Virus record (IMG/VR): IMGVR_UViG_3300020378_000008
Location: 1 to 36,572 of that record
Length of the DNA: 36,572 nt
From: a virus
Reading direction: 5' to 3' (one strand)
The notes beneath the pieces were generated by a model. The model was given only the letters and a program-made list of their open reading frames with translations. It was not told the DNA's origin and searched no databases. How positions within the stretch are numbered: position 1 is the first letter of the stretch; every line of letters begins with the position of its first letter. Shown piece by piece: positions 2,217 to 22,820 of this stretch. The translations under genes and the position numbers were made by a program.

Positions 2217-2936
2217 ATGCCTTTACCAACAATTGCCACACCAATTTATGAGTTGGAACTTCCCTCTACAAAAAAGACTGTTAAGTATAGACCTTTTCTT
2301 GTAAAGGAAGAAAAACTACTTGTGCTTGCATTGGAAAGCGAAGATACAAAACAAATTACAAATGCAATCACTGCTGTAATTAAGAGTTGTATTATTACTA
2401 AGGGTATTAAAGTAGAGTCACTTCCTACATTTGATATTGAATATCTCTTTCTGAATATCAGAGGCAAGTCAGTTGGTGAAGAAGTTGAGTTGAATATTAT
2501 TGCACCTGATGATGGTGAGACTGAGATTCCAGTCAAGATTAATCTTGATGATATCAAAGTCATTACAGATGAGAGTCATACAACTCAAATCAAACTTGAT
2601 GATAATCTGATGATGGAGATGAAGTATCCATCACTTGATCAATTTATTAAGAACAACTTTGATTTTAATGATCAGGGTAATATTGATCAATCTTTTGAAT
2701 TGATTGGAACATGTATTGATAAGATCTTTAATCAGGAAGAGGTGTGGGCAACTGCTGATTTTTCTAAAGATGAGATCTCAGACTTCCTTGGACAGATGAA
2801 CTCTAAACAGTTCAAACTGATTGAGAACTTCTTTGATACAATGCCTAAACTTTCTCATACAGTTAAGGTGACTAACCCCAAGACAAAAAAGAAGAGTGAG
2901 GTAGTGCTTGAGGGTTTATCAAGTTTTTTCGCATAG
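2217..2936 (+). CDS. 26: Baseplate hub protein, T4 gp26-like; possible tail assembly chaperone
   Basis: The 239-residue product resembles the T4 base plate protein family that includes gp26. Its conserved features are the N-terminal YELELPSTKKTVKYRPFLVKEEK, a helix ALESEDTKQITNAITAVIKSC, the DIEYLFLNIRGKSVGE segment, and a C-terminal part ending in KVTNPKTKKKSEVVLEGLSSFFA. An AGGT Shine-Dalgarno element precedes the ATG. The gene sits between a tube-like protein and the tape-measure-like proteins. That is the position occupied in lambda-like phages by the tail assembly chaperone that binds the tape measure. It ends in a heptanucleotide T-TTT-TTC followed almost at once by TAG, with a second ORF in the -1 frame. 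Two products are therefore likely: the 239-residue protein and a fusion of about 298 residues. Confidence 0.8.
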   Translation: MPLPTIATPIYELELPSTKKTVKYRPFLVKEEKLLVLALESEDTKQITNAITAVIKSCIITKGIKVESLPTFDIEYLFLNIRGKSVGEEVELNIIAPDDGETEIPVKINLDDIKVITDESHTTQIKLDDNLMMEMKYPSLDQFIKNNFDFNDQGNIDQSFELIGTCIDKIFNQEEVWATADFSKDEISDFLGQMNSKQFKLIENFFDTMPKLSHTVKVTNPKTKKKSEVVLEGLSSFFA

Positions 2937-2954
2937 GCATGATCCATATGGATC
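2910..2954 (+). promoter_or_regulatory. Candidate programmed -1 ribosomal frameshift site
   Basis: Three elements line up. A Shine-Dalgarno-like GAGGG is at 2910-2914. Nine nt later comes the heptamer T-TTT-TTC (2924-2930), in the correct X-XXY-YYZ register for the gp26 frame. Ten nt further is a perfect hairpin of five base pairs, GATCC-ATAT-GGATC (2941-2954). The zero frame stops at 2934-2936, only one codon after the slippery sequence. The -1 frame runs open through CGC ATA GGC into the ATG of the 58-residue ORF. The order resembles the E. coli dnaX frameshift cassette. The register and open frame are seen directly; frameshifting itself is inferred. Confidence 0.6.
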
Positions 2955-3115
2955 TTGAGGGATATTATAAACTCAATTTTGCCCTGATTCAGTACCATAA
3001 ATATTCATTAACTGAGATTGAAAATCTTATCCCTTGGGAGAGAGATGTTTACGTGAGTCTTCTACAGCAACATTTGGAAGATGAAGAACAAAAAATGAAG
3101 CAAAAGAATGGCTAA
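2939..3115 (+). CDS. 58-aa protein, probable frameshift extension of gp26 (gp51-like position)
   Basis: The ORF begins MIHMDLEGYYKLNFALIQYH and contains TEIENLIPWERDVYVSLL, then a charged helical tail ending KQKNG. The 'LPWERDVYVSLL' pattern is common in the second part of phage tail assembly chaperones and in small proteins after gp26 in T4-like phages. It overlaps the following gene by 8 nt. The upstream Shine-Dalgarno options are weak: GAGGG lies before the slippery site and too far away. Independent initiation is therefore less convincing than production as a gp26 fusion through the -1 frameshift at 2924-2930. In T4 the next gene is 51 (hub assembly catalyst); the present protein is much shorter, so homology is uncertain. 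Confidence 0.75.
   Translation: MIHMDLEGYYKLNFALIQYHKYSLTEIENLIPWERDVYVSLLQQHLEDEEQKMKQKNG
2996..3003 (+). promoter_or_regulatory. Late promoter octamer CATAAATA inside the 58-aa ORF
   Basis: CATAAATA is identical to the octamers before the fibre genes at 16904 and 31549 and differs at one base from the T4 consensus. It lies about 105 nt before the first tape-measure-like gene, so it could give that gene extra late transcription. Confidence 0.45.
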
Positions 3116-5351
3116 GATTGTAAGAGGTGGTGGATCTAGTAGAGGTCCCAAAAAACTTGCATCTAAAACTGGGGGTAAGAAGGCGGCTGCTGAAAGACTG
3201 ATCAGAAAACTTAAGGACGCCAAGAAGACTGGAGATATTTCATCTGGATTGGATGCACTGATTGATTCCATCAAAAAAGAATCTTCTAAGGATGATGATG
3301 GTGGATCCTCTGCTCTCTCTATCATTCCTAAAGTATCTGATAGTGAGGGTGATTTAGTTACTGAAGAAGTTGATGAAAGAGTCCTATCTCTTATAGGTCA
3401 AGATGGTGTAGTTGATATTGATTATGCTACATATAAAACTCTTCTTAGGGAGAAAATGGCTGCTGCTAGGATGGCAAACAGCAAAATCCCCACAGAAGAA
3501 ACAGAAATATTAACTGAAGAATTTAAAAGAGTCAAGAGAAAGACAGGAAGATTCAAAGTCAAGAAGAAAAAAATAAGTAAGAATTCTTTCTTTGATAATG
3601 GTTCTGCACCAAAGACTAACCTCAAGGCACTTCCTCCTGCTGTAAACAAGAGAGAAGTAGAGCAGGATGAGAAAGAAGAAAAGATTAATGAACTAGAAGA
3701 GTTTGTTAGAAATATTTTAGCTCCAAGTCTTACAAAAATTCAAGGGAGTCTTCAGGGAGTTCTTGATAATCTCAATAAGCAGACAGAGTTAGAGAAGAAA
3801 GAAGCAAAGGCAGAGGATAAAGCAAGACAAAAGGAAAAGAGAACTGCTAGAGAAGCAAAGTTAGAGGGAGGGGGTAGCGAGAGTGCAGTAAAGAAAACTG
3901 CTGAGAAGATATCTAAACCTGCAATGGGTATCTTTGATTTCATTAAGAACTTTGTGATGCAAACATTAATGGGTGGAGCTTTTGCTTGGTTGCTCAACTT
4001 CCTTAAGGATCCTGCTGGCAACTTTGATAAGATGTGGAAAGGTTTGGTTAATGGTATCATTGGACTATTAAATAATGTGATTAGTTTCCTTTATGATAAT
4101 CTTATAATGCCTATTAATAGAGCTATCAATGCTATTAATACTGCAATAACTGATATGGAAACTCAGATCAATAATGCTCTTTCGTTATTTGGTCAGGGTG
4201 GAATCACTTTACCAAAGATACCATTAATACCAAAGGCACAGATACAAACCATCCCACTTGCTGGTCAACCACCCAATCAGGGTGGTCCAATCACATTCAC
4301 TGCGCCACAGATGGTTGGTGGTGGTTTGATTGATCCTAATACTGGACAGAGAATAAGAGGTATGGGTGCTGACACACAGTTAGTGGCACTCTCTCCTGGT
4401 GAAGTTGTGATGAGTAATAAAGCAGGAGATATGTATGGTAGGGATAATCTACTTGCTGCTAATGCTGCTGCTGGTGGAACCAATAGACCTAGGGTTGGTA
4501 AAGGTGTCTTAGGTTTCAGAGATGGTGGTCAGGTAGGTAGAACAGTGTTTAGTGCTGGTCATTACAACACTGGTTATAATAGTAGTGGTATTCCTATTGG
4601 GTCTGATGGTCTTCCTGTGAGTGGCACAACAGATCCAGGAACTGGAGTTGCAGAATATCAAGCAACAAAACATTTGATTAATACATTGAAGATGTTGGTG
4701 CAAGAGAGGGGTCTGTCTAGCAGAATTGGATTTGAAAATATTACAGCAGAGAGAGGAGATAAAGGACTAAGAGGTGTTCCAACCAGAGTGGAGAGTACAC
4801 CAGGCACACAATTTGTTGACTTGCACTTTGACCAACATGCTCAAGGTGGCACACCAGGTTCAGCAGGTAGGTCAGGTATTATTACAAGAAATCTAAGTCC
4901 TGTTGATAGAGCTCTTGCTGCTGCTTTTGGTGATTTTGGTAGAGGATTCAAGATGGGTAAGATTGGTGTAGCAGAGGCAGGTGGAACTATCCTTGAAGTG
5001 GCTGCTATTGATGATCCAAACATCAAATCATTGCTTAATGAAGTGAAGTCAGGACAAAAAGGTCCACACTCTAGAGCAATGGCTGAAAAGATTCTTAATG
5101 CTACTTTGTCTGGAATGGACAATAAACCAGTCAAAGTATCTCCTTTGTCTTCTAGTAACACTGAAGTTTCTGTGCCTGTATCCCCTGCTCCCAACGTAAC
5201 AGTTGTGCCTGTGCCTGTTGGATCTAATCCCAACTCACAATCCATATCTAATACTGGTGCTAATCAATCAAAGGTTCCAGGATTCTCTGCTATTGATGCA
5301 AACAACTTTGAGATGATGGTTGTCAAATCAATCTATAACATAGTAGGATAA
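3108..5351 (+). CDS. Tape-measure-like tail protein with C-terminal amidase-like domain
   Basis: The product has 747 residues. Residues 1-60 are very basic. A charged coiled-coil stretch spans about 195-255 and contains ARQKEKRTAREAKLEG. Residues 273-336 are hydrophobic (NFVMQTLMGGAFAWLLNFL and NGIIGLLNNVISFLYDNL). A tape-measure-type motif, VALSPGEVVMSNKAG, lies near 425-440. From about 480 the sequence fits the zinc-dependent N-acetylmuramoyl-L-alanine amidase (Amidase_3) order: SAGH with His485, AEYQATKHL with Glu516, FVDLHFDQH with His573, and TILEVAAIDDPN with Glu630. These match the family's DPGH, E, SIH and LvE positions. This would cleave between MurNAc and L-Ala in peptidoglycan. Its middle module (coil plus TLMGG hydrophobic segment) recurs in the next gene. 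Activity is inferred; the fold call should be tested by profile search. Confidence 0.75.
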   Translation: MAKIVRGGGSSRGPKKLASKTGGKKAAAERLIRKLKDAKKTGDISSGLDALIDSIKKESSKDDDGGSSALSIIPKVSDSEGDLVTEEVDERVLSLIGQDGVVDIDYATYKTLLREKMAAARMANSKIPTEETEILTEEFKRVKRKTGRFKVKKKKISKNSFFDNGSAPKTNLKALPPAVNKREVEQDEKEEKINELEEFVRNILAPSLTKIQGSLQGVLDNLNKQTELEKKEAKAEDKARQKEKRTAREAKLEGGGSESAVKKTAEKISKPAMGIFDFIKNFVMQTLMGGAFAWLLNFLKDPAGNFDKMWKGLVNGIIGLLNNVISFLYDNLIMPINRAINAINTAITDMETQINNALSLFGQGGITLPKIPLIPKAQIQTIPLAGQPPNQGGPITFTAPQMVGGGLIDPNTGQRIRGMGADTQLVALSPGEVVMSNKAGDMYGRDNLLAANAAAGGTNRPRVGKGVLGFRDGGQVGRTVFSAGHYNTGYNSSGIPIGSDGLPVSGTTDPGTGVAEYQATKHLINTLKMLVQERGLSSRIGFENITAERGDKGLRGVPTRVESTPGTQFVDLHFDQHAQGGTPGSAGRSGIITRNLSPVDRALAAAFGDFGRGFKMGKIGVAEAGGTILEVAAIDDPNIKSLLNEVKSGQKGPHSRAMAEKILNATLSGMDNKPVKVSPLSSSNTEVSVPVSPAPNVTVVPVPVGSNPNSQSISNTGANQSKVPGFSAIDANNFEMMVVKSIYNIVG

Positions 5352-5354
5352 GAT

Positions 5355-7946
5355 ATGGCTATTCCACTTCTACTAGGTGCAGCAAAGGGATTACTTGGAA
5401 ATACTACAAAGAGGGTAGTCAAAGGAAAGGCTAAGCAAACAGCAAAGAATTTTGGTGGCAGAAAAAAAGGTGGTGCTTTAGTCAAGAAAACAAAAACTGT
5501 TGGATCATCCAAAAAAGCAAAAGTAAAACCACAACAGACTTATACTGGTGCAAGTGTTTCAAACAATACATCATCCTCAAAAGCAAAAATAGTAGGTGGT
5601 GGTGATGTCAGTTATGAAAAACTAACTGAGCAACTTAATAATATTGTTAATCTAAGTTCCTCTTTAGAGAAAGCATTCAAAGTTCAATCCAAAGAGAAAG
5701 AAAAAACTCTTAAGAAGAAAGATAAAACAAGACAAAAAGAAAAAAGAGAAAATAGAGAGGGTCAACTAGAATCCAGTAAGACAAGATCTGGTTCTATTGG
5801 TGGTGGTATTTTTAGTGCAACTAAGAAGTTTGGTATTATGAACTTCTTGTTGAATACTTTGATGGGTGGTCTTGCAGTATTATTTTTAAAGAACTTTGAG
5901 AGTATAAAGAACTTCTTTAGTGAACTTGGTGAAGCGTTTAGTAATAGAATGAATCTCCTTAGGTGGGGTCTAACATCACTGAATGGACCTGTGTCTGCAG
6001 CAGGGAGAACTGTGGTTAAAGTATTCAAACCTCTTCTCAAAAAGATGGGAACAGGTTTGAAGAAGGGTCTTTCAAGTGTTGGTAAATTTGTAGGAACTGC
6101 ATTTAAAAAACTGGGTGTAGGTATATTCAGATTTGCTCAGAATATTTTGGGTAGAGTCACTGGTGTTGGTTCTACTGCTGCAAAGACTGCAGTAAGATCA
6201 GGAACTAGAGGTGCAACCAATGCTGCAGCAAGGACAGCAGCAAGGACAGCAACTAAAAGTGCGACAAAATCTGCTGCTCAGAGACAATTTGGAAAACAGG
6301 GTGCTAAGAGATTGGCTTTATTCTCAAAGGCATTCAAGAGAATACCAATCCTTGGTTCTATTATTGGTATTGGTATTGACCTGGCAATGGGAGAGTCACT
6401 TGATAGAGCAGTTGTGGGTGCCATAGGTGCATCTATTGGTTCAACTATTGGTGCATTTATAGGTCAAGGTTTGATTCCTATTCCTTTTGTTGGAGCAGGA
6501 GTTGGTGCTTTAGTTGGTGGAGGTATTGGTGATTACCTTGCTAAGAAACTTTATAGTGATTTTGCGTCTAACTTAACTGGTGAAGGTCTAAGTCCTCTTG
6601 GGGACACCAGTGAAATTACTTCAAAGATGATTAAAGATAGAAGAAATATGAAAGCAGGTGATCAAAAGCAGATACAAGGGAAGACTATGGTGTGGAATGG
6701 GTTACAGTTTGTAACTCCACAGCAGTATCAGCAACAGACAGGAAAGGCACCAAACACCACTAATACAAGTTCAAGGGGAACTGGATTTGGTGGAAGTGGA
6801 AGACAACAACAGATTTATAATTATCTGAAGTCAAAAGGAATGAGTCATAATCATGCCATGGGTCTCATGGCTAATATTGATAGGGAAAGTAGTTTTAGAA
6901 CTGACCCTGGTAAGGGTAGTGCTGGTGAGATAGGAATGTTCCAGTGGAACCCACAGGTAGGAAGAGCTCAAAGATTTGAGAAAGCAGTTCCTGATTGGAA
7001 AACAAACTGGAAAGCTCAAATTGATTATGCTTTAGGGGAATTTAAAGGTCCTGAATACCTTAGAAAGACATTTGGTTCAGAGAAAGAAGCAGCAGATTGG
7101 TGGATGAATAATTGGGAGATACCAGGTGATCCTATAGGTGCTTCTAGAAAACAAGATGCTTATCTTAAGAGTGCTCCAATCACTGGATCTCCCACTTCAT
7201 CACAGGCATTACGTGCTACATCACAAGTTACCACCTCAACCACAATCCAAGACTTGTATAGAGGTGGATCTAATACATCACAGTTCCCCACCACTGATGG
7301 ATATGGAATGAGAATTCATCCTATTCATGGTGATTATAGAATGCACAAGGGTGTAGATATTGCACCACCTGGTCCTGGATATTTTGTTGGTTTGAAAGTC
7401 CCTGGTAAGGTGACCAGAGTAAGTAATGATCCTGGTGGATACGGTAAGTTTGTTATAATTACATCACAGCAGACTGGTATGAGTTATATGTTTGCTCATA
7501 TGGCTACCATCAATGTTAAGGTGGGTGATAATTACACAGGACAACCAATTGGTGAGATGGGTAACACTGGTGGTAGTACAGGTATTCACTTACATTATGA
7601 GGTATATAAGGGTGGAAAGGATGGCCCAGAAGTAGATCCAACTCCATATATGAACCTTCTTACTATGGGTAAGATTGGTTCTCAAACCACAACATCTACA
7701 GCACAAGTTGTACCAGCAAGAAGCACAACTCAATCAGCGCAGAGTGTTCAGCAGAGAACATCATATGAGGGTGGTGGAAGTCAGGTGGTTACTGTTCCAT
7801 ATCCAGCACCAGGTGGCAATCAGCAGTCTCCCATGGTTGGTGGTGGATCTGGTGGTGGTATAATGATGACTGGTGGTTCCACCAAAGCACTATTAAATAG
7901 TTACTATAAATCCAAGTTGATTGGATTCCTATACAAGCAAGGTTAA
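5355..7946 (+). CDS. Tape-measure-like protein with lysozyme-like and M23 endopeptidase domains
   Basis: The product has 863 residues. The basic N-terminus leads into a coil (KTRQKEKRENREGQLESS) and a hydrophobic NFLLNTLMGGLAVLFLKNF shared with the preceding gene. About 331-400 forms glycine-zipper membrane-like helices (VGAIGASIGSTIGAFIGQG, VGAGVGALVGGGIGDYLAKK). From about 481 a phage tail lysozyme-like domain follows (RQQQIYNYLKSKGMSHNHA, MANIDRESSF with likely catalytic Glu511, EIGMFQWN). From about 645 comes a LytM/M23 domain with GYGMRIHPIHG, HKGVDIA (His664, Asp668) and TGIHLHYEV (His745, His747), the classic zinc-binding set. A low-complexity Gly/Gln tail ends the protein. It likely helps the tail tip pierce the cell wall at infection. 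Only 3 nt separate it from the previous gene, and it is joined to the next by TAATG. Confidence 0.85.
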   Translation: MAIPLLLGAAKGLLGNTTKRVVKGKAKQTAKNFGGRKKGGALVKKTKTVGSSKKAKVKPQQTYTGASVSNNTSSSKAKIVGGGDVSYEKLTEQLNNIVNLSSSLEKAFKVQSKEKEKTLKKKDKTRQKEKRENREGQLESSKTRSGSIGGGIFSATKKFGIMNFLLNTLMGGLAVLFLKNFESIKNFFSELGEAFSNRMNLLRWGLTSLNGPVSAAGRTVVKVFKPLLKKMGTGLKKGLSSVGKFVGTAFKKLGVGIFRFAQNILGRVTGVGSTAAKTAVRSGTRGATNAAARTAARTATKSATKSAAQRQFGKQGAKRLALFSKAFKRIPILGSIIGIGIDLAMGESLDRAVVGAIGASIGSTIGAFIGQGLIPIPFVGAGVGALVGGGIGDYLAKKLYSDFASNLTGEGLSPLGDTSEITSKMIKDRRNMKAGDQKQIQGKTMVWNGLQFVTPQQYQQQTGKAPNTTNTSSRGTGFGGSGRQQQIYNYLKSKGMSHNHAMGLMANIDRESSFRTDPGKGSAGEIGMFQWNPQVGRAQRFEKAVPDWKTNWKAQIDYALGEFKGPEYLRKTFGSEKEAADWWMNNWEIPGDPIGASRKQDAYLKSAPITGSPTSSQALRATSQVTTSTTIQDLYRGGSNTSQFPTTDGYGMRIHPIHGDYRMHKGVDIAPPGPGYFVGLKVPGKVTRVSNDPGGYGKFVIITSQQTGMSYMFAHMATINVKVGDNYTGQPIGEMGNTGGSTGIHLHYEVYKGGKDGPEVDPTPYMNLLTMGKIGSQTTTSTAQVVPARSTTQSAQSVQQRTSYEGGGSQVVTVPYPAPGGNQQSPMVGGGSGGGIMMTGGSTKALLNSYYKSKLIGFLYKQG

Positions 7947-9289
7947 TGTCAAATCAGAACTCAGCATCAGAACCCGCTAATATACTACAAGCCAAGATTA
8001 CTTCCAACACTGGCAGTAAGGCAGTGGATGTTTCTGCTGCAATAGCAGAGTTCAGTTTCTACGAGAGTGTTCTCTCCAATCACACTACAGCAACAGTTGC
8101 TATGGTAGAAACAGGCACTACTGTGGGTGGTGCTATTGATGGTCTTTTGGATAACCTTCCTATCAGAGGTGGTGAGAGATTTGATGTTGTCATGGAAGAC
8201 AACAATGGAAATGAACTAAAGTTCAAGAGTGGGATGTATGTAAACAGAGTTAGGAATGCTATACCTGGAACACAGAAAGACGTTTACTTCCTTGACTTAG
8301 CATCACTTGAATACTTTACTAATGATCAGACTAGAGTTGTAAAGAGATATAAGGAAGCACCCATCTCCACTCATGTATCAACAATCTTAAAAGATGTCCT
8401 TCAAACCCAGTCTAGTATTGATGTTGATGCTACCAGTTTGAACTATAACTTCTTTGGTAATGATAGGAAACCATTCTATGTTTGCACTTGGTTAGCATCT
8501 AAATCTATTCCACAGGTATCAGCAAGTGGTGGTAGTGGTGGCAACACTTTGAATGGAGCAGCAGGATATCTTTTCTATCAGACAAGAGAGTCACTCCACT
8601 TTAAATCTATTGACAATCTCTTTAAGCAATCTGCTGTGAAGAAATATACATACACCAACACAACAGGAGTCCCAGAGGGATATGATGGTCAGATAGTATC
8701 ATATACCATTGACACTGATATTGATGTCAATCAGAATCTCACACTTGGTACTTATAATAACAGAACTATTTTCTATGACCCTGTATCATTCAGTTATGTT
8801 GTAAGGAACTACGGTATATCAGATCAGAAGAATAAGATTACAACTGCTGGAAAATCAACTCAAGAATCTGGTAACCTTTTACCTAAAGGTCTTACACAAA
8901 CTCCTACTAGATTGATGAGTGCTGTTTTGGATGTGGGTTATAATCCACCAGGTGCTACACCAGAAGCACAACTTGAGTCCTGGAAGAACAATCCAAAGGT
9001 TCCCAATTATGATGCCCCAAAGACAATGGTTCAGTCCATCATGAGATACAACCAGTTGTTTACAATTCAAACTAATGTTACAATAAAGGGAGACTTCAGC
9101 ATCAAAGCAGGTGATATGATAAGATGTGATTTCCCTCAAGTTAGGGGCGATAATAGTGCAGATAAGGACATAAATACAAAGACCAGTGGTGACTACCTGG
9201 TAGCACATGTGTGTCATAGAGTCACCCCATCAGAAACATTTACTAGTCTTGGTTTAATTAGAGACTCCTACGGTGTAAAGATAGATTAA
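7946..9289 (+). CDS. Baseplate hub protein, gp27-like (functional analogue)
   Basis: The 447-residue protein has the layout of myovirus hub proteins (T4 gp27, P2 gpD, Mu gp44). Beta-rich N-terminal strands (SAAIAEFSFYESVLSNHTT) precede the LKFKSGMYVNRVRNA region and a PISTHVSTILKDVLQT helix. The segment FYVCTWLASKSIPQ, followed by AGYLFYQTRESLHFKSIDNL, is typical of the point where hubs describe a folded second tube-like domain. Near the C-terminus come IKGDFSIKAGDMIRCDFPQ and SGDYLVAHVCHRVTPSETF, which match the 'i.G...i..Gd.v....p' end of the family. It lies directly before the gp5-like spike gene, the expected partner. A gp27 name is not given because overall sequence similarity to T4 cannot be judged by eye. 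Confidence 0.75.
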   Translation: MSNQNSASEPANILQAKITSNTGSKAVDVSAAIAEFSFYESVLSNHTTATVAMVETGTTVGGAIDGLLDNLPIRGGERFDVVMEDNNGNELKFKSGMYVNRVRNAIPGTQKDVYFLDLASLEYFTNDQTRVVKRYKEAPISTHVSTILKDVLQTQSSIDVDATSLNYNFFGNDRKPFYVCTWLASKSIPQVSASGGSGGNTLNGAAGYLFYQTRESLHFKSIDNLFKQSAVKKYTYTNTTGVPEGYDGQIVSYTIDTDIDVNQNLTLGTYNNRTIFYDPVSFSYVVRNYGISDQKNKITTAGKSTQESGNLLPKGLTQTPTRLMSAVLDVGYNPPGATPEAQLESWKNNPKVPNYDAPKTMVQSIMRYNQLFTIQTNVTIKGDFSIKAGDMIRCDFPQVRGDNSADKDINTKTSGDYLVAHVCHRVTPSETFTSLGLIRDSYGVKID

Positions 9290-12200
9290 TGATAGAGCAA
9301 GGACTTTTTAAAAATCATTTTGTAGGAAGGGATGGATTCCAATGGTGGATTGGACAGGTTCCTGATAGTGACTCATGGTCTGCTAATCTCCCAGATAAAA
9401 CTGTAGCAGGAAATTCAGACCCTGATTATAAGGGTTATAGTGAGAGATATAAAGTTCGTATTATGGGTTACCATACTGCGAATAAGGAAGAGTTGCCTGA
9501 TGATGATTTGCCTTGGGCAACTTTGATGTATCCAGTCACTGCTGGTGGTGGTAGTGCTGGTCATTCTCAGACATCTAATATTGTTCAAGGAACCTTTGTC
9601 TATGGTTTCTTCTTAGATGGTGAGGATGGACAACAACCTGTTATTATGGGTTGTATTGGTTATAATGATTATCAATCAGTGATGAAGAATGTCCCTGATG
9701 TGGGATTTGTTCCCTTTAGGGGTGTTAAACCTGATGTTCCAGTTGGAGCAGCAATTAGACCACTGTCTAAAGCAACTGAAACCACAGGGACTGTAACAAC
9801 AACTGTTGATGGACAGCAGGTAAAAACAGCTGCAGCAGTCAATGGTAATGAGATGTTGTCTCCTGAGGCACCAATCACAACAGAAAGTGAATCTACAAAT
9901 GATGCTGCTAAAGAAAAAACTGAAGTTCTAGCACAACCAAAGACCTGTGAGAAACTTCCTGTAGGAAGAATACAACAGTCAATTAGAAATCTTATCTATG
10001 ATGTAGAGCAGGCAAAGAAAGGTTTATATAATTTTGAGAAAGGTGCTATTCAAGAGTTAGCAGACAAGGAGCAGTGGATTAATGAAAAGATTGAGTTCTA
10101 TGCAGAGCAAATAGCTGGTGGTCTGAAATCAATATACACTGAGATTGAAAAGTTTGTAGAGGACAAAGTTAATGAAGCACTTAAGTTTGCATATGATATT
10201 GCATTCCCTAATGAGAGAGCTGCTGTAAAGAGTACATCAAAAACTATTCTTGATACTATCTCCTGCTTCTTTAGGAAACTGATTGGTCAATTGGTTCAGT
10301 TGATGACTAAGTTTCTCGCTGATGTTGTTGATAGGGTCATCAATGTAAGTAAGTGCTTTGTAGATAACTTCATTGGGGGCATCTTTGGGATGCTAGGTGG
10401 TATCATTGAGGGTTTGTTTTCTGGTCTTACTAGTTTAATCTCTGGTGCTGTTGATATTGGTGGAGAAGCACTTGACCTTGGTAGTGATGTCCTAGGAATG
10501 GTTGATCAACTTCTTTCATTCTTAACTTGTGATGATAGACCAGAGTGTTCAACAGTTAATGAGTGGAATATCATCACAGGTGGTAATCAAATTAACAAGG
10601 GTGATATCACTGATATTGTAGATAGAGCAAAGAACCTCTTCCAAGAGACACAGAATGTGGGTTTACAAGCTCTTGATAATGTAGACATGGTGACTGACAT
10701 TCAGATCAGTCAACTCTTCAATCTTGAGGACTCTTGTAATATCAGGGAGGTTCTTTGTGGAGCACCCATCCTTGAGTTCTTTGGAAGTAATGGAGTTGGT
10801 GCTGCTGGAAATCTGATTATTGGAGCTGCTGGTGATATCATTGGCGTTGATATGCTTAGTTTTGGTAATGGATATGATGCAGATGTAGAAGCAAAGGTTA
10901 TTGATATTTGTGGTAGAGGTAGTGGTGCTGTATTGAGACCAGTTTTTGGTAGAATACCCACTGATGGATCACCCATAGGTGGAGCTGGTGGCGGCACACC
11001 TGCAACAGCACCACCTAACATTGGGTTTGGACCATTTGGACCACAGAATTATCCATTCCCTGGTGGACCTGGACCATCCCTATCTCCTGTTCCTCTTGGT
11101 CCTGTCTCAAATAATACACCACTCTATGGTGTTGGACCTACAGGTTTTGGAGACCAAGCACCTCTAGAGTGTATTGATACTGAGTTTACAGTCACAAGAG
11201 CTGCTGCACTATCTAATGTATTTACATTCAGATTGGTTGATGCTGACCCTGAATTCCTTACTGGTTGGGATTATACTGGTGATGATGTTAGTGGTGGTGA
11301 GACAGAGGGAGGAACAACATACATTGAATGTGTTGTCCCTGGAGTTGATTACCTTGTTCAAGCGTTCCTACCTGATGGTACACCATGTCCCAATCCACTG
11401 AAGATTGATGCTGGTGGATCTACTGTTAGAATGGATGATGCCTGGGATGGTGGAGTAGAGATTATAAATGAAGATGTTGAGGTTGGTAACATTATAGATG
11501 GGGTCAATTTCACAGTTACTACTGATGCTCAATATGCCAATAGAGTTATTATTTCTGGTCTTGATGTCAATGTAGGTAAAGAATTTGATGGCAATCAACT
11601 TAATGAAAATATTTCTAGATCAGTTCAAGTAGGTGTAGTATATGATATACAAATTATTTCTCCTGAGTCAAGAGAATCAGATGGAGGCACAAGAATTAGA
11701 GGTGGTGGAAATAGATTTGAGGTAGAAGAAGCAAGAGACAGTGATTGGACTGATGTCATCATGACTGCTTCACAAGGTAGATTCTTTGATCTTGTCAGTA
11801 ATGCTGATGGCAATTCAACTATTGCAACTGCAAAGTATGTTATTGATGGAAGTTCAACTAAAATTGTCACTCAACAAGTTGAAAGAAGTATTGGATATGT
11901 ATCTGATGGTGACTACCTTGATCTGGTTGTAACTGCAGGGGTTGGTAAGTTTAGAAATGTCAAGAACAATACCTGTCTTTATAGAAGAGATGGAGAGACA
12001 CCACCTGATGGTCCAGGAGAAGCGGTGGCACCTCCACAGATTGGAGTTCCAACTATTCCTGATATTCTTATACCTGCACCTGCTCCTGATGGTGATATTG
12101 GTATTGTTGATGTGATTGTAGTTCAACCTGGAGCTGGTTATCTTCCTGGTCCTGATGGAAGTAAGGGTGGTGATGGTAGAACCTGGGCAAACCCTGATGA

Positions 12201-12744
12201 TACTATTGTGGTAAGAGATGATGGTAGGATTGAAACACCTATCCCCCCTGGTAATTATTTCTGTGTAAAGGCTGGTGATACAGTTGAACTTCCTCCTGGC
12301 ACAGTTGCTGTCACTGAAACTAATGGTGGTGTAGGTGGTGGTGAAAGGATTATTGGTGGAGCACCATACATCATGAGAAATCCTGGATGCTTCACAACAC
12401 CAGAGGGTGGTGAGAGGAAGGATGAAGGTGGTTATCCTGTTCTTCTTTACCTCTGTGATATTATTGTTGATGCTCCAGGTTTTGGTTATGAACCAAATGA
12501 TCCTGTTATTATCAAACCATCCAGAGGTGCAGAAGCAACACTGAAAGTAGATAAGTTTGGTAGAGTCATTGGAGTCAATGTAATACAGGCAGGTGAAGGA
12601 TTCAAAGAGATGCCTACCATTACTATTGATTCAGACAATGGATATAATGCCAAACTTATTGCAAAACTTTGTATAGATAAGGATGTAGAGTTTGAAGATC
12701 CTGAAAAGGTTGTCCAAGTTGTAGATTGTGTGGGTAAATTCTAA
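9289..12744 (+). CDS. Spike/hub protein with gp5-type OB domain, very long extension and no lysozyme domain
   Basis: The product has 1151 residues. Residues 1-130 form a gp5/VgrG-type OB-fold: FVGRDGFQWWIGQVPD, RYKVRIMGYHTANKEELPDD, LPWATLMYPVTAGG, GTFVYGFFLDGEDGQQPVIMG. T4 gp5 carries lysozyme after this domain; here there is instead a Thr/Glu-rich linker (150-220), a long amphipathic helical part (225-320) and a strongly hydrophobic helical block (about 324-410, including GGIFGMLGGIIEGLFSGL). A Pro/Gly linker (about 563-625) and a beta-rich half follow, with two 'PGxGY' units (VVQPGAGYLPG and VDAPGFGYEPN). TAATG junctions lie on both sides, implying translational coupling. The OB assignment is strong. 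The roles of the hydrophobic block and C-terminal half are unknown; membrane contact during infection is one inference. Confidence 0.8.
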   Translation: MIEQGLFKNHFVGRDGFQWWIGQVPDSDSWSANLPDKTVAGNSDPDYKGYSERYKVRIMGYHTANKEELPDDDLPWATLMYPVTAGGGSAGHSQTSNIVQGTFVYGFFLDGEDGQQPVIMGCIGYNDYQSVMKNVPDVGFVPFRGVKPDVPVGAAIRPLSKATETTGTVTTTVDGQQVKTAAAVNGNEMLSPEAPITTESESTNDAAKEKTEVLAQPKTCEKLPVGRIQQSIRNLIYDVEQAKKGLYNFEKGAIQELADKEQWINEKIEFYAEQIAGGLKSIYTEIEKFVEDKVNEALKFAYDIAFPNERAAVKSTSKTILDTISCFFRKLIGQLVQLMTKFLADVVDRVINVSKCFVDNFIGGIFGMLGGIIEGLFSGLTSLISGAVDIGGEALDLGSDVLGMVDQLLSFLTCDDRPECSTVNEWNIITGGNQINKGDITDIVDRAKNLFQETQNVGLQALDNVDMVTDIQISQLFNLEDSCNIREVLCGAPILEFFGSNGVGAAGNLIIGAAGDIIGVDMLSFGNGYDADVEAKVIDICGRGSGAVLRPVFGRIPTDGSPIGGAGGGTPATAPPNIGFGPFGPQNYPFPGGPGPSLSPVPLGPVSNNTPLYGVGPTGFGDQAPLECIDTEFTVTRAAALSNVFTFRLVDADPEFLTGWDYTGDDVSGGETEGGTTYIECVVPGVDYLVQAFLPDGTPCPNPLKIDAGGSTVRMDDAWDGGVEIINEDVEVGNIIDGVNFTVTTDAQYANRVIISGLDVNVGKEFDGNQLNENISRSVQVGVVYDIQIISPESRESDGGTRIRGGGNRFEVEEARDSDWTDVIMTASQGRFFDLVSNADGNSTIATAKYVIDGSSTKIVTQQVERSIGYVSDGDYLDLVVTAGVGKFRNVKNNTCLYRRDGETPPDGPGEAVAPPQIGVPTIPDILIPAPAPDGDIGIVDVIVVQPGAGYLPGPDGSKGGDGRTWANPDDTIVVRDDGRIETPIPPGNYFCVKAGDTVELPPGTVAVTETNGGVGGGERIIGGAPYIMRNPGCFTTPEGGERKDEGGYPVLLYLCDIIVDAPGFGYEPNDPVIIKPSRGAEATLKVDKFGRVIGVNVIQAGEGFKEMPTITIDSDNGYNAKLIAKLCIDKDVEFEDPEKVVQVVDCVGKF

Positions 12745-13334
12745 TGGCTCAACCAGAAAATAGGGAGTATAGATTAGGAACCAAAGATGGTGAGATTAAG
12801 TTTGGTCATAAGACCTCTGACAATCAGATAGATGCTGTCCTAATCAGGAATGTTAAAGGTTTCAAGCACTACATTGAAATGTGTAGCACTGGAGATGACT
12901 TTCGTAAAGATGGCACAATCATCAGGGCACCTGGATCATGTCAGATAAGAGCTGGTGATGCTGTTAAGAAGGGGAAACCTGGCATTGAGATTGATGCAGT
13001 GAGTGGTGATTTGATTCTCAGAGCACCTAGTGGTAAGGTAAGGATTGAAGGTATTGATGTTGAGATCAGTGCAACTGGTGGGACACCAACCACAGGAAAT
13101 GTAAACATCTCAGCAAATGAGAAGTTCATTGTCAATGCTGGTCAGATGGTGGACATTAATGGAACAGTAAGCGTGAAGATTGCTTCTGATAATACAGTAG
13201 ATGTTATTGGAAAATCTGTGTTAAATATCTATGGTGGAATGATTGATGCAGCAGACTCTGCTGCTACAGCTAAATCAAGTAAGGGTTCTAAGTGTGGACC
13301 TTGGGATAATGAAACTAGAGAGAGAATTGCATGA
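12744..13334 (+). CDS. Small beta-rich baseplate spike-associated protein
   Basis: The 196-residue protein starts AQPENREYRLGTKDGEIKFG. Its body is short alternating strands (IEIDAVSGDLILRAPSGKVR, GNVNISANEKFIVNAG, MVDINGTVSVKIASDNT, VDVIGKSVLNIYGG). Strand pairs with Gly turns of this kind resemble the beta-helical tips of phage spikes (the gp5 C-terminus and P2 gpV). It directly follows the gp5-like gene, which has no obvious beta-helix of its own, so the spike stalk may be encoded separately here. The C-terminus is Ser/Lys-rich (KSSKGSKCGPWDNETRERIA). The next gene overlaps at ATGA. The function is inferred from composition and position. Confidence 0.65.
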   Translation: MAQPENREYRLGTKDGEIKFGHKTSDNQIDAVLIRNVKGFKHYIEMCSTGDDFRKDGTIIRAPGSCQIRAGDAVKKGKPGIEIDAVSGDLILRAPSGKVRIEGIDVEISATGGTPTTGNVNISANEKFIVNAGQMVDINGTVSVKIASDNTVDVIGKSVLNIYGGMIDAADSAATAKSSKGSKCGPWDNETRERIA

Positions 13335-14011
13335 AAGTACCTGATCTTTTTGTAGGAAAACAGTTACAAGTTGGTTGTGGAAAACCTGATATTCTAGGAC
13401 GTGGTCCTACACAGGTTAGAGGTTCATCCTATGTGCAAGGTCCAGAACTTGTAGGTGATCCATCACAGTTTCCTGGTGTTGCTGGAAAGGGAGATCCTTT
13501 TGAGTCTGGTTCAGTGATGGCAGGGCAAACTGGAAACCCTGAGATGACACCAGCTCCATTCTATTCATTCTTTGCAACATCATTTGCCAGGATTAAAAGT
13601 TTTCTGAAAGTTGATTTACTCTTGACAGTTAAAGTGATTAAGAGTAAAGTAATATACGCAGAAGTGATTATGGCAAAGGTTAAAAACTTTGCTATTCCTC
13701 ACCCAACTCTACCTAACACCAATCTTGTTTATGCTTGTCTGGAAGGACCAGAGAATGCAGTTTATGTGAGAGGTGTTCTTAGAAACAATAACACTATTAA
13801 ACTTCCTGATGTGTGGAGAGAACTGGTAGACCCAAGAACTATTACAGTTTCACTAACACCAGTAGGTGCTGAACAAGGTCTTGTGGTTAAGAGGGCAACT
13901 AATAATGAAGTGGTGGTGCAAGCAAGACCAGGTATGCCTATTCATTGCCATTATCATGTCTTTGCTGAAAGGAAAGATGTAGAGAAACTAGTAACAGAGG
14001 TTAACATTTAA
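13331..14011 (+). CDS. Structural protein with C-terminal fibre domain (paralogue A)
   Basis: The 226-residue protein has a Gly/Pro-rich N-terminal part (GCGKPDILGRGPTQVRG, VQGPELVGDPSQFPG) that looks like a conserved tip or cap segment. A basic hydrophobic stretch (SFARIKSFLKVDLLLTVKVI) follows. The C-terminal 110 residues begin KNFAIPHPTLPNTNLVYACL and continue EGPENAVYVRG, IKLPDVWRELVDPRTITV, LTPVG and HCHYHVFAERKDVEKL. This matches the domain in the next gene almost element by element and is known from phage fibre and baseplate proteins ('K.F.I.HP...L.H..lEGPE..VYyRG'). It ends in TAATG, overlapping the next start. A structural role close to the spike or fibre attachment is inferred. Confidence 0.7.
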   Translation: MKVPDLFVGKQLQVGCGKPDILGRGPTQVRGSSYVQGPELVGDPSQFPGVAGKGDPFESGSVMAGQTGNPEMTPAPFYSFFATSFARIKSFLKVDLLLTVKVIKSKVIYAEVIMAKVKNFAIPHPTLPNTNLVYACLEGPENAVYVRGVLRNNNTIKLPDVWRELVDPRTITVSLTPVGAEQGLVVKRATNNEVVVQARPGMPIHCHYHVFAERKDVEKLVTEVNI

Positions 14012-14898
14012 TGTTGGAAGCAGTCAATTGGCAAAGTTTATTTAATTATCCTCAGGGTGCTAAGGAAGGCAGTTTACCCTTCAGATTTGAGAACTTTGGA
14101 ACCTTTGCAGGTCCACAGTATCGTTCTGAGAACTACAACTATGACACTGCATCAAAGGAGGGTCTTTGGCACACCTTAGTTCCTGGTAACTTTTCATTTG
14201 AGAATGATGATTTAGGTGCTTATCTGTATAATAACAGGGGCAATTATGTTGGTTTCCATTGTGATGGCGTGTCTACTGCAATGATGACTCTTGAAGCATC
14301 ATATGGTAATATTCCTGTCTTCAATGTTTTTGCAAAACAAACTAATGTAAAAGGTAATATACTTGCACTTGGTGATATTGAATCCATTGGCAATATCACA
14401 ACAAATGGTAACTTGACATGTAATGGAGTTTTTGATTTTCAAGGTCCAATGAATCTATTGGGTATTGGTGATGTAGCAAAAAATATTATTGATGCAAAAT
14501 CACAGCCTGCTAAACCTTTTGATATTAAACACCCAAGTAAAGCAAATCACAGACTAAGACATGTATCTTTAGAGGGTCCAGAGATTGCTGTTTATTATAG
14601 AGGAAAGTTAAAAGACTCTGGTGTTATTGAACTGCCTGATTATTGGAATGGTTTTGTTGACCCAGAATCGATCACTGTAAATCTGACACCTATTGGATGC
14701 TATCAAGAGTTGTTTGTTGAGAAGATTGAATGGGGTAGAAACATCATTGTCAAGAATCAAAGTGGTGGTCCCATTGACTGCCATTACACAGTGTATGCTG
14801 AGAGAATTGACTTGGATAAATTAATTGTTGAGTATGAGGGAGAATCTATACATGATTATCCTGGTCAAGACTTTATCAATATAAAGGAGAGTAAATAA
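14011..14898 (+). CDS. Structural protein with C-terminal fibre domain (paralogue B)
   Basis: The 295-residue protein differs from its neighbour in its N-terminal half: LFNYPQGAKEGSLPFRFENF, then AYLYNNRGNYVGFHCDG and VKGNILALGDIESIGNITTN. These short beta repeats resemble fibre shaft segments. The C-terminal 110 residues (KPFDIKHPSKANHRLRHVSL, EGPEIAVYYRG, IELPDYWNGFVDPESITV, LTPIG, CHYTVYAERIDLDKLIVEYE) are paralogous to the end of the preceding protein. This pattern suggests tandem duplication of a shared end domain on unlike front parts. A Shine-Dalgarno AAAGGAG lies near its end for the next gene. A virion role is inferred; no enzyme motif is seen. Confidence 0.7.
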   Translation: MLEAVNWQSLFNYPQGAKEGSLPFRFENFGTFAGPQYRSENYNYDTASKEGLWHTLVPGNFSFENDDLGAYLYNNRGNYVGFHCDGVSTAMMTLEASYGNIPVFNVFAKQTNVKGNILALGDIESIGNITTNGNLTCNGVFDFQGPMNLLGIGDVAKNIIDAKSQPAKPFDIKHPSKANHRLRHVSLEGPEIAVYYRGKLKDSGVIELPDYWNGFVDPESITVNLTPIGCYQELFVEKIEWGRNIIVKNQSGGPIDCHYTVYAERIDLDKLIVEYEGESIHDYPGQDFINIKESK

Positions 14899-19900: not shown

Positions 19901-22820
19901 CTCATTTGCACAACCCATCAAGGATCTTTATCCACAATATGATAGAGATAACCCTGATTCTGATCCAAACCCCACTATTTCTTATGCATCTGCTGATATT
20001 TTGGGTCAGGTTGATGTTGATGACATCAAAAATAGTAATACTAAAGCTGCTATCTCTAATGCAGAGAGTGACCTTGCTGTTGGCATTGCAATCACAGACA
20101 TCAGGTCTAATGCTGCTGGAACAGCGCATACCATCTATACTAATGTAGAGCATGGACTGAATAGAATTGTAAAACTGCAAGTTGTTGATGGTGGTCTGGG
20201 ATACGGTAATGGAACTGGTGCAGTTGAGAATCTCTACAATGCTAAGTTTATTGCTGGTGCTGGTGTCACAGGAAGAATGGCTACTGGTAGAATCACAGTC
20301 AATGGTTCAGGAACTATTGTCAGTGGTGATGATATTGAGATGATGGATCCTGGTTCCAACTATAAAGTTGGTGATAACCTGACTGTTATTGGTGTTGCTA
20401 CAACCACTGGTCATTCTGTTGCTTCTGTTGCTGTCACTTCAATCTATAACAATATTGGTGATACTGTTAGAATCAGTGGCATCACATCATTTGCATATGG
20501 TGGATACAATCAACTCTACACAATTACTGGTTTCTCATCTACAACTGAGATTAATGTCAAGTCACTGAATGCAATTGAAACTTCATCTGCAGATGGTGTA
20601 GGTGCAGATAATACAAATTATGGAACTGCCATTGTTACTGGTTCAACAATAAGTGTTTCATCTTTATCTTATGATAATGTAACTGGTCTTGCTACTGTTA
20701 CTACTTCCACTAATCATGGATTCAGATCAAATAATGCAGTTACATTATCTGGTGCTGATAGTGCATTTTACAATGGAAACTTCACAATCAATAGGATTGT
20801 TGGACTGACTGAGTTTATTGCCAATATTGGTGTTGGAACTAATGTTCCTGTTACAACAGGTGCAATCAAGGCACATAATCCTGGTCAAGCAGCACAACCT
20901 GGTCTAATCTCTCTATATGATGAGAACTTTGGTGGCAGGATCCTTAACATCTATGATGGTATCACTGCACAACTTTCATCACAGGTTTCCAATGTCTCTG
21001 TTGATGAAGTAAACATCAATAATCTTACATCTTTTGACTTCAAGATTGGTGACTACATCAGAATTGATGATGAGATTATGAGAATCAAGACCACTGTTGT
21101 TTCTAACCCAGTTAAGGTATTCAGAGGTCTTCTTGGCACACAGGCAGCAATCCATGCAACTGGTTCTGTTGTTAAGAGAGTTAAGATCAGTCCACTTGAA
21201 CTTAGAAGACCATCTATCATTCGTGCTTCTGGTCATACATTTGAATATATTGGTTATGGACCTGGCAACTACTCAACTGCTTTGCCTGAAAAGCAATCAA
21301 GACAGTTAACTATCAAAGAGCAACTTGTCTCGCAGTCATTCAATAGTTCTGGTGGTATTACAGTATTCACTGGTATGAATGATAGGGGTGACTTCTTTGT
21401 TGGTAACAAGAAGATATCATCTAATACTGGTAAAGAAGAAGTCTTTGATACTCCAGTTCCTACTGTTACAGGTGAGGATATCTTTGCTCTTGGACCAGAT
21501 ACAGGAACAGACCTTATCAATCCTGCTGATGTCACAGTTTCAAGAACTATTAGGGTTGAGGGTGGTCAAGCAGGTAACTTACTTTCACAGTTTGATGGTC
21601 CTGTACTCTTCTCTAAGAAACTCACATCAACTTCACTTGATGGCATTGAGTCAAACTCAATCTTCCTTCAAGGTAATGCACCAGTATCTAGAAAGATTAC
21701 AGTAGGAGTAACAAAACCAACACTGGCAGGAACCCCTGGTGATATCGTCTTCAATGCTAATGTTGATGCTAGCACTAATGGTAGTGAAGTGGGTTATGTA
21801 TTCACTAAACAAGGAAGTTGGAATCCTTTTGGTGCTGTTAGTATAGATCAAAACTCTAACATACCTACATTTGCTGGTGTTGGTGTTGGAACTACAACTC
21901 CTGGAAATTGCACCCTCAAAGTAGGTTCAGGTGCATCAATGTTCTGTGTTGATGGTGATGGGGTTGGTATTGGAACCACTGCTAATGGCGTGAGTCTAAG
22001 AGTTAATGGAACAATTTTTGCTAATCAGTTTACTGGTGATGGTTCTGGATTGACTAATCTTGCTAATGATAGTCTTTGGCAGGATGTTGGTGCTGGTGGA
22101 ACAGGAATCTATCAAAGAGATAATCTCAATGTTGGTATTGGGACAACCATTCCATCAGGTTCATACTCATTAGAACTTGGAAGTCCTGGTGTAGCTGGAA
22201 CAAACCTCTATGTTGTTAACGCATCCAGATTCATTGGAACTGCTGATTTTGGTGATGTCAACATTGGTGGTAAGTTTGTATCTACCAACTATGACTTGAA
22301 TTCCACATCAGGTTCATTGGTTGTTGGTGTTGCCACTGCTACCAATATTCAAGTTGGTTCTGGTGCAACAATTCTTACTACAACATCTAATGGTGTAGGA
22401 ATCAACTCAACATCACCTTCAACTGAACTTGATGTTGATGGAAGAGCAAGAATTCAAACTGTATATTCCATTGCTCAACCTCTGACAAGTTCTAGTAATG
22501 TTGTTACTATTGACCTTTCAAGAGGTCAGATATTCAATCTAAATACCATTGAAGACATCAATCAATTTGTTCTTGATGGTGTGAGAGCAGACGCTGCACA
22601 GTCATTCAGTATTAAGATTACACAGGGTTCAACACCTCGTAATGTGGGTATTGCTACATTTAAGACAAGTGGTGGAGTAGATATACCTGTTCTCTTCCCA
22701 GGCAATGGATTATTGCCCACTGTGACTGTATCAGCAGGAGCAACTGATATCTACTCATTTATGACATTTGATGGTGGACAATCACTCTATGGTGTAGTTG
22801 GAGGTCAGAACTTCTCATGA
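16941..22820 (+). CDS. Very large beta-rich fibre/virion protein, 1959 aa
   Basis: The first 300 residues have a parallel beta-helix (pectin-lyase-like) look, with ILYVSPNDLDATDDIDNQG, RPFKTIQRALIEASRFSYQ, TTIVLYPGDHIVDNRPG and GVIIPRGVSIVGMDLRKTK. The middle part repeats small beta units with 'HGl.vG..V.i.n' cores (TEIPHGLKVGAKVEINNVTS and STNHGFRSNNAVTLSGADS). Around residues 1690-1760 come fibre motifs ANQFTGDGSGLTNL and NVGIGTTIPSGSYSLELG. The C-terminus (SYSIAQP region, VTVSAGATDIYSFMTFDGGQ) is globular. Similar long proteins are structural in cyanomyoviruses; a baseplate-attached fibre is the best inference. It starts a late unit and overlaps the next gene by ATGA. No S74 peptidase motif is seen. 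Confidence 0.75.
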   Translation: MPLSRLDNFLKNVRGNILYVSPNDLDATDDIDNQGNSLGRPFKTIQRALIEASRFSYQKGLDNDRFGKTTIVLYPGDHIVDNRPGWIPLDGTVYRLRDGTSSSDFSPYSSISNFDLDSPSNELYKLNSVHGGVIIPRGVSIVGMDLRKTKIRPKYVPNPENDNIERTALFRVTGGSYFWQFTIFDGNPNSQVYKDYSTATFVPNFSHHKVTAFEYADGVNDVYINDAFISNTQFSRTDLEMYYEKVGLAYGPASGRAIQPDYPSSGLDIEAKIDEFRIVGPAGGAVGISSIRAGDGSTATTAITVELESPGLPGLNVDTAFQVNDCVDAAYNGSFLVDSVITRDATTGNTTKFTYNVGNAPVDPLETPVSATVVLDSDTVTSASPYIFNISLRSVFGMCGLHADGSKATGFKSMVVAQFTGVSLQKDDNAFLKYDKTTGTFLFANNVPNIHSDPDAKYRPEYSNFHIKASNDSVCQLVSIFAIGYHQQFITESGGDFSITNSNSNFGEIALNSIGFRNKSFLQDDVGYITHIIPPQEIQTNNFNLEYDAIDVTNTIGISSSNRLYLYNQINPAVRPKGVLQGYRIGAKVNDQLNVGITSDSTLRTKSARIVMQGTENSSDQVTGTKVKTVGRTSAGINSITANVITFTENHNFLNGETIRFVSDTARLPDGLINNKVYFAITNGLNNDQIKVASSFSEAAASQSITINDKGGTIQVQSRVSDKIVGDVGHPVQFDTINQQWYVNVGTAASDNTIYSTLTGVGVTELGAATSRTFITRRSDDRSLSDKIYKFRYVIPSGVGITSARPPRTSFVLQESNDVTGATNAEVALKYNPNVVTMSNSAQMRNFRFLSNAEFDSGQLNFTTEIPHGLKVGAKVEINNVTSTVNTVGLANSGFNGTYNVLNVSGCNKFSVASPATNPGTFTNNTSQRTTSLPTFQKIEVPNNYYVYDIDTVREYQNGVQDGVYYLTIVDSSSTPEIAPFNDSDRFSFAQPIKDLYPQYDRDNPDSDPNPTISYASADILGQVDVDDIKNSNTKAAISNAESDLAVGIAITDIRSNAAGTAHTIYTNVEHGLNRIVKLQVVDGGLGYGNGTGAVENLYNAKFIAGAGVTGRMATGRITVNGSGTIVSGDDIEMMDPGSNYKVGDNLTVIGVATTTGHSVASVAVTSIYNNIGDTVRISGITSFAYGGYNQLYTITGFSSTTEINVKSLNAIETSSADGVGADNTNYGTAIVTGSTISVSSLSYDNVTGLATVTTSTNHGFRSNNAVTLSGADSAFYNGNFTINRIVGLTEFIANIGVGTNVPVTTGAIKAHNPGQAAQPGLISLYDENFGGRILNIYDGITAQLSSQVSNVSVDEVNINNLTSFDFKIGDYIRIDDEIMRIKTTVVSNPVKVFRGLLGTQAAIHATGSVVKRVKISPLELRRPSIIRASGHTFEYIGYGPGNYSTALPEKQSRQLTIKEQLVSQSFNSSGGITVFTGMNDRGDFFVGNKKISSNTGKEEVFDTPVPTVTGEDIFALGPDTGTDLINPADVTVSRTIRVEGGQAGNLLSQFDGPVLFSKKLTSTSLDGIESNSIFLQGNAPVSRKITVGVTKPTLAGTPGDIVFNANVDASTNGSEVGYVFTKQGSWNPFGAVSIDQNSNIPTFAGVGVGTTTPGNCTLKVGSGASMFCVDGDGVGIGTTANGVSLRVNGTIFANQFTGDGSGLTNLANDSLWQDVGAGGTGIYQRDNLNVGIGTTIPSGSYSLELGSPGVAGTNLYVVNASRFIGTADFGDVNIGGKFVSTNYDLNSTSGSLVVGVATATNIQVGSGATILTTTSNGVGINSTSPSTELDVDGRARIQTVYSIAQPLTSSSNVVTIDLSRGQIFNLNTIEDINQFVLDGVRADAAQSFSIKITQGSTPRNVGIATFKTSGGVDIPVLFPGNGLLPTVTVSAGATDIYSFMTFDGGQSLYGVVGGQNFS

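Follow-up and report, generated by a model that had tools for sequence, protein, structure and literature searches.

Virion-borne enzymes that open the bacterial cell wall have been described in several arrangements. In phage T4, the tail lysozyme gp5, an enzyme of the virion, breaches the wall during entry. Tape-measure-like proteins that contain virion-associated lysins are likewise already known: mycobacteriophage TM4, T5 and the staphylococcal phage phiIPLA35 carry a wall hydrolase inside the tail tape-measure protein (as cited in PMC6116005), and a survey of enterococcal phages reported no wall hydrolases other than lytic transglycosylases in tape measures (PMC10194240). Among cyanophages, the hub protein gp15 of the Anabaena myophage A-1(L) is a virion protein with three hydrolytic domains defined by structure (lysozyme, endoglucanase and peptidase), two of which were shown to be active on Anabaena cells (PMC10966104). 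Phage S-SCSM1 encodes two different wall hydrolases in neighbouring genes, ORF213 (glucosaminidase) and ORF214 (VanY), and mass spectrometry detected both proteins in caesium chloride-purified virions; the authors leave both a role in entry and a role in release open (PMC9602691). Here we analyse the same two-gene locus in a 36,572-nt stretch of viral DNA (positions 1 to 36,572 of IMG/VR record IMGVR_UViG_3300020378_000008; hereafter the window), in which two adjacent genes for proteins of 747 and 863 amino acids (slot 1 and slot 2; Table 1) carry three predicted classes of wall-cutting domain.

Most likely, these genes encode a virion-borne wall-drilling kit that has moved from the spike to exchangeable slots. 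We give a probability of about 0.72 to the full reading, namely that the pair are paralogous, tape-measure-like virion carriers with exchangeable wall-hydrolase cassettes, which replace the gp5 lysozyme at entry. The locus is a notable variant of the systems above in that the carriers are paired paralogues, the cassettes are exchanged as units and the spike has no detectable lysozyme. An amidase and a lysozyme/M23 combination occupy the window where S-SCSM1 has a glucosaminidase and VanY, and scaffolds, pairing and exchange are not described in the passages of the S-SCSM1 paper that were consulted. Whereas the enterococcal survey reported lytic transglycosylases only, two paralogues with up to three enzyme types are found here, and whereas A-1(L) has all three domains in one hub protein and a separate tape measure, the window has a paralogous pair with exchangeable cassettes. 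Sle1-type effectors of actinobacterial contractile injection systems likewise combine a tape-measure-related coiled-coil carrier with a variable functional domain (PMC13277306), but they are bacterial proteins and not phage wall hydrolases, and their variable domain is C-terminal rather than placed between scaffold and tail. Unlike T4 gp5, the gp5 homologue of the window, encoded two genes downstream of slot 2, has an OB domain without detectable lysozyme, and the cutters reside in other proteins.

By gene content and best relatives (Synechococcus phages RN05-S, RB11-B, S-B05 and S-H68), the window belongs to a marine T4-like cyanophage of the Kyanoviridae type; the records of several further relatives carry the Kyanoviridae classification. 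Both open reading frames (ORFs) and every catalytic residue named in a preliminary description of this DNA were recovered at the positions given there, and its proposal that a T4-type phage carries three wall-hydrolase classes in a pair of neighbouring tail-module proteins held up. Each protein consists of an N-terminal scaffold and a C-terminal tail that are conserved in relatives (numbered L002 onwards below) and a middle part, the cassette, that is not.

The slot-1 cassette is amidase-3-like but lies outside formal PF01520 membership. The 747-aa protein has no Pfam or NCBIfam match and no meaningful match among PDB sequences, where the hits are noise; a profile of three close cassettes matched no PDB sequence either, and a PF01520 search over the whole window returned nothing, the curated cut-off of 27 bits not being reached. 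The best same-slot relative, L032, matches nearly the full Amidase_3 profile at E 5.2e-5 and 23.8 bits, below that cut-off. Nevertheless, the four residues from which the preliminary description had derived an Amidase_3-like set (H485, E516, H573 and E630) are invariant in a set of nine sequences related to residues 467-676, which are 47-84% identical to the window. AlphaFold2, supplied with this set, gave a cassette model with a predicted local distance difference test score (pLDDT) of 79.7 and a predicted template modelling score (pTM) of 0.81. All 21 PDB chains that Foldseek retrieved with this model at E<=0.001 are Amidase_3-type N-acetylmuramoyl-L-alanine amidases, and the first match beyond them (E 0.08) is an unrelated protein. 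Using VIA-align, the best Z score was 13.4 for Mycobacterium tuberculosis Rv3717 (Ami1), followed by 12.3 for Nostoc AmiC2, and 8.4 for the next fold class. Judged from the model, the cassette has the Amidase_3 alpha/beta fold, a match well beyond chance, and its predicted H-E-H zinc ligands and catalytic Glu stand at what we take to be the usual structural places of this family. The preliminary description had singled out a missing amidase fold or zinc site as the observation that would count against it; structure prediction returned the fold together with a predicted zinc site. Rv3717 and AmiC2 share this fold and the H/E/H/E residues, although identity to solved amidases is 10-18% and the cassette is part of a phage tail-module protein. 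When profiles of the amidase subtypes were compared pairwise, B-C was strong, A-C fair, and A-B and A-D weak, so the amidase call for the window relies on structure and residues more than on the profile chain. A pattern-based, non-exhaustive scan of bacterial and archaeal genomes with the cassette profile found no relative and thus no candidate cellular source.

An amidase fold could in principle cut a different bond, with poly-glutamate, cyanophycin-like compounds or peptides as conceivable substrates. The low identity to all solved amidases leaves room for this, as does the overall fold in common with phage poly-gamma-glutamate hydrolase (Z 8.4 and 7.9), N-formylglutamate amidohydrolase (7.3) and the cyanophycin dipeptide hydrolase CphZ (6.8). 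We consider it unlikely, however, because the amidases score clearly higher (Z 10.7-13.4) and take all of the 21 best Foldseek places, and because sibling cassettes of the same slot are wall hydrolases. The slot-1 cassette is therefore best described as a predicted zinc amidase that would cut the bond between N-acetylmuramic acid (MurNAc) and L-Ala.

For slot 2, Pfam recovers both domains that had been proposed from the residues. PF18013 matches at 59.4 bits against a cut-off of 28.2, its conserved N-terminal Glu corresponding to Glu511 in an 'IDRESSF' motif, and PF01551 matches at 63 bits against 28.7, with His664 and Asp668 in HKGVD and His745 and His747 in HLH. Slot 2 thus joins a lysozyme-type domain, predicted to cut glycan, to an M23 endopeptidase, predicted to cut crosslinks. 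In two slot-2 proteins, those of L063 (6146-7864) and L073, M23 is separated from the glycan-cutting region by a further domain without assignment ('KIAVLAYGTNEWG...').

The clearest view of cassette exchange comes from RN05-S (L054) and RB11-B (L056), two complete isolate genomes from Synechococcus MW02. Their DNA is 92.7% identical over the 7.2 kb up to the slot-1 cassette, 88.5% from the end of that cassette through the slot-2 scaffold and 97.8% beyond the slot-2 cassette, whereas both cassettes are unalignable in DNA. Similarly, L003 and L004 fail to align only in the slot-1 cassette, with identities of 96.3% and 94.7% elsewhere; this cassette holds M23 in L004 and an unassigned domain in L003. 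The window scaffold is 71% identical to those of L003 and L004, yet their cassettes are unrelated to the window amidase; against RN05-S, the scaffold is only 42% identical and the cassette 49%. Several unrelated pairs have their junctions in matching positions. When the eight cassette types are mapped on a scaffold tree of 35 slot-1 proteins, they require 16 changes, against a minimum of 7 and a shuffled mean of 22.8; the window-type amidase requires 8 changes for 9 rows, which equals random placing. Type labels were assigned by the analyst from clustering and alignment, and the sample was in part selected by cassette type, a bias that touches frequencies but not intermixing. Cassettes are thus exchanged wholesale, as units, on near-identical scaffolds. 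Since a single strain served for the isolation of both RN05-S and RB11-B, the cassettes cannot simply be a strain-level host key. Most loci are metagenome contigs, in which shared flanks can mislead assemblers, and chimeric assembly might mimic such exchange; we regard this as extremely improbable, given that RN05-S and RB11-B are isolate genomes, that the RN05-S version recurs independently, at 97%, in S-B05 and S-H68, and that the junctions coincide. No description of cassette exchange was found in the open-access full texts searched, and an earlier one may exist elsewhere. In a separate case, L058 (S-B43, MN018232.1; 5563-7701 onward), a slot-1 scaffold 99% identical to that of RN05-S leads into a different amidase cassette inside which the ORF ends, and reverse-strand fibre genes come next, reflecting a rearrangement or an assembly error.

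The same two genes hold a wide repertoire of enzymes. Cassettes found in relatives include amidase, M23, VanY, lysozymes, SLT, glucosaminidase, GH19, Hydrolase_2, RlpA-like and Tlde1-like kinds, and between one and three wall hydrolases at this locus are common among T4-like cyanophages. By Pfam, S-SCSM1 has glucosaminidase in slot 1 and VanY in slot 2; B23 has GH19 in slot 1 and a lysozyme2+M23-like match in slot 2; the pairs are Phage_lysozyme2 and M23 in Sf-CH11, SLT and VanY in DSL-LC03, T4-type lysozyme and M23 in ACG-2014f, Amidase_2 and a weak Hydrolase_2 match in ACG-2014b, and glucosaminidase and M15 in S-RIM2. Only a single hydrolase was found in SynMITS9220M01, S-SRM01, S-H9-2 and P-HM1, and none was detected in S-WAM2 and ACG-2014j, which have one gene only at this position. 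In the nearest relatives, slot 1 is often an amidase, and slot 2 combines M23 with a glycan-cutting domain that is Hydrolase_2-like or RlpA/DPBB-like, in some cases below cut-off; the arrangement of slot-1 amidase, slot-2 glycan-cutting domain and M23 recurs in L015, L016, L056, L062 and L075. Three predicted cut types across the pair are thus a recurrent design in T4-like cyanophages, and the earlier judgement that their co-occurrence is unusual has to be abandoned. If the domains were catalytically dead folding or plug modules serving tail assembly, activity would be absent, and for every family member it is so far a prediction; nevertheless, we hold this to be very unlikely, as cassettes about 50% identical retain every catalytic residue unchanged and the remaining cassette types are unrelated enzymes with wall cutting as their sole common function. 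Two further slot-1 cassettes are worth recording: one in L003 (7354-7842) and L005 contains several conserved His residues and is unassigned by Pfam, apart from a weak DUF5715 match, and one in L030 (7558-8052) and L057 resembles Tlde1 (E 0.009, below cut-off), possibly with an L,D-transpeptidase-like fold.

The two carriers are paralogous scaffolds, as indicated by profile comparison. With profiles built separately from non-overlapping slot-1 and slot-2 sets, hhalign aligned the two at a probability of 98.3% and E 2.6e-14 over 155 columns, whereas against an unrelated coiled coil, the one in gp5, these profiles reached E 7e-4 at best. Iterated scaffold profiles picked up proteins of both slots together with the coiled-coil parts of gp5, and were therefore used for cassette borders only and not for paralogy. 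The name 'tape-measure-like' is plausible for both proteins from their position, annotation, helical paralogous scaffold and hydrophobic segments, Gly-rich hydrophobic peaks ahead of the slot-2 cassette recurring in most slot-2 relatives checked. To this extent the preliminary description can be retained, but kinship with T4 gp29 could not be traced: hhalign gave a probability below 1% for gp29 and 13% for the putative tape measure of HTVC008M, both as single sequences and hence insensitive comparisons. Deepening these two families yielded only near-identical sequences, and a profile comparison with the phiN3 protein at the same position likewise gave no clear link. The term 'tape measure' is accordingly based on position, annotation and general features. 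In A-1(L), the tape measure attaches to the central spike through its C-terminal helices (PMC10966104), and by analogy we propose that the conserved C-tails anchor the slot-1 and slot-2 proteins at the hub.

The central spike itself provides a complementary observation. Pfam found no PF00959 Phage_lysozyme domain in the gp5 of the window or in that of any of ten relatives, whereas T4 gp5, as a control, matched at E 1.3e-12; the gp5 OB domain was matched in the window and in 8 of the 10 relatives, several of the latter below cut-off. With no lysozyme domain detectable in gp5, the slot cassettes probably replace it, and the simplest reading, which we infer, is that the two carriers have taken over wall cutting at entry from the spike. 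The domains might instead act in release, as endolysins fused to structural scaffolds that burst the cell late in infection. Slot-1 or slot-2 proteins are labelled 'endolysin' in GenBank records, and the S-SCSM1 authors, as noted, keep entry and release both open. On the other hand, the domains are fused to conserved scaffolds with conserved C-tails and encoded in a tail/baseplate cluster, the S-SCSM1 orthologues, which GenBank notes call 'virion protein', occur in purified virions, and the T4-type entry lysozyme domain is not detected in gp5. Release is accordingly improbable as the main role, and a tail location with a role in entry is preferred.

According to the mechanism that we propose for entry, the conserved helical N-scaffold and the C-terminal tail would hold each carrier in the tail, with the cassette between them, and sheath contraction would deliver both proteins into the periplasm. 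There, the slot-1 amidase would cut MurNAc-L-Ala, the slot-2 lysozyme the glycan and M23 the peptide crosslinks, and the three cutters would jointly perforate the cyanobacterial wall at one spot so that DNA can pass. Cassettes would be swapped as units by recombination between related phages. Several points weigh against this reading. The slot-1 cassette has no Pfam match, relatives reaching PF01520 only below the cut-off; the AlphaFold model of slot 2 is poor (pLDDT 44.5) and unusable, so that the slot-2 half is drawn from profiles only; no sequence link to gp29 was detected by the insensitive comparison above; a divergent gp5 lysozyme could escape Pfam; and loci L062-L078 were fetched because of these amidase types, which biases the cassette-type frequencies. 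More speculatively, two co-assembled paralogous tape-measure proteins may act as paired carriers whose cassette identity is under diversifying selection, so that entry enzymes are reshuffled independently of receptor-binding fibres, a proposal that we consider possible but doubtful. Selective agents might, for example, be inhibitors from the host or from competing phages, in the way that T4 Spackle inhibits gp5.

Table 1. Features of the two-gene locus and adjoining genes in the window (nucleotide positions; residue numbers refer to the respective protein)
Feature	Position	Strand	Basis
T4 gp26-like baseplate protein, upstream anchor of locus	2217..2936	+	PF12322 E 7.5e-73; phrog_150
58-aa ORF at gp51 position (baseplate hub assembly catalyst), overlaps start of 747-aa gene	2939..3115	+	translation; gp51 annotation at same position in relatives
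Slot-1 protein, 747 aa: N-scaffold, amidase cassette, C-tail	3108..5351	+	ORF, relatives
Slot-1 conserved N-scaffold, residues 1-469	3108..4514	+	kept in relatives with differing cassettes
Core shared with slot 2, residues 202-362	3711..4193	+	hhalign of slot-1 and slot-2 profiles
Amidase_3-fold cassette, residues 467-676	4506..5135	+	AlphaFold2 pTM 0.81; Foldseek; VIA-align
His485, predicted zinc ligand	4560..4562	+	invariant; directly after first strand of model
Glu516, predicted zinc ligand	4653..4655	+	invariant; opens helix H50-67 of model
His573, predicted zinc ligand	4824..4826	+	invariant; within strand E101-109 of model
Glu630, predicted catalytic residue	4995..4997	+	invariant; within strand E161-167 of model
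Slot-1 conserved C-tail, residues 690-747, proposed hub anchor	5175..5348	+	64-71% identity to window in L002-L008, whose cassettes are mutually different
Slot-2 protein, 863 aa: N-scaffold, lysozyme/M23 cassette, C-tail	5355..7946	+	ORF, Pfam, relatives
Slot-2 conserved N-scaffold, residues 1-428	5355..6638	+	relatives
Core shared with slot 1, residues 88-243	5616..6083	+	hhalign of slot-1 and slot-2 profiles
Three hydrophobic segments rich in Gly, residues 330-391, which may insert into a membrane	6342..6527	+	Kyte-Doolittle peaks 1.4-1.8
Phage_lysozyme2 domain, residues 484-602; Glu511 at 6885-6887	6804..7160	+	PF18013 E 5.8e-16
Peptidase_M23 domain, residues 662-755; HxxxD and HxH motifs	7338..7619	+	PF01551 E 3.1e-17
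Slot-2 conserved C-tail, residues 781-863, proposed hub anchor	7695..7943	+	59-66% identity to window in L003, L004 and L009, whose cassettes are unlike the window's
Conserved tail protein, probable T4 gp27 hub counterpart (from position)	7946..9289	+	phrog_350 'tail protein' E 9e-97
gp5-like central spike, 1151 aa, OB domain	9289..12744	+	PF06714 E 4e-7; no PF00959

The order gp26-gp51-slot 1-slot 2-tail protein-gp5 is retained across relatives. Besides the pair, the window encodes the gp26-like protein, the gp51-sized ORF, the phrog_350 tail protein, the gp5-like spike, head closure, a DNA end protector, tail fibres and baseplate wedge proteins. In the tail region, the adjacent ORFs 13331-14011 and 14011-14898 share matches to phrog_17490 and phrog_28536 (unknown function), which points to a tandem duplication. 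Two large ORFs lie in the fibre/baseplate region, one of 1094 aa (22817-26101) matching phrog_24848 (unknown function) and one of 989 aa (32281-35250) without a PHROG match at E 0.001.

The passage of cyanophages through the wall of marine cyanobacteria has been little described, and annotations of the slot-1 and slot-2 genes still frequently read hypothetical protein or endolysin. This pair of genes offers a general rule for locating likely entry enzymes in these abundant phages and may account for the lysozyme domain missing from gp5. RN05-S and RB11-B, near-identical phages of the same host strain in which both cassettes differ, provide a ready-made experiment on the purpose of these enzymes, and the three predicted cut types in one virion form a testable system of cooperative digestion. 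Should an arms race at the wall underlie cassette turnover, this would represent a layer of phage-host conflict apart from receptors.

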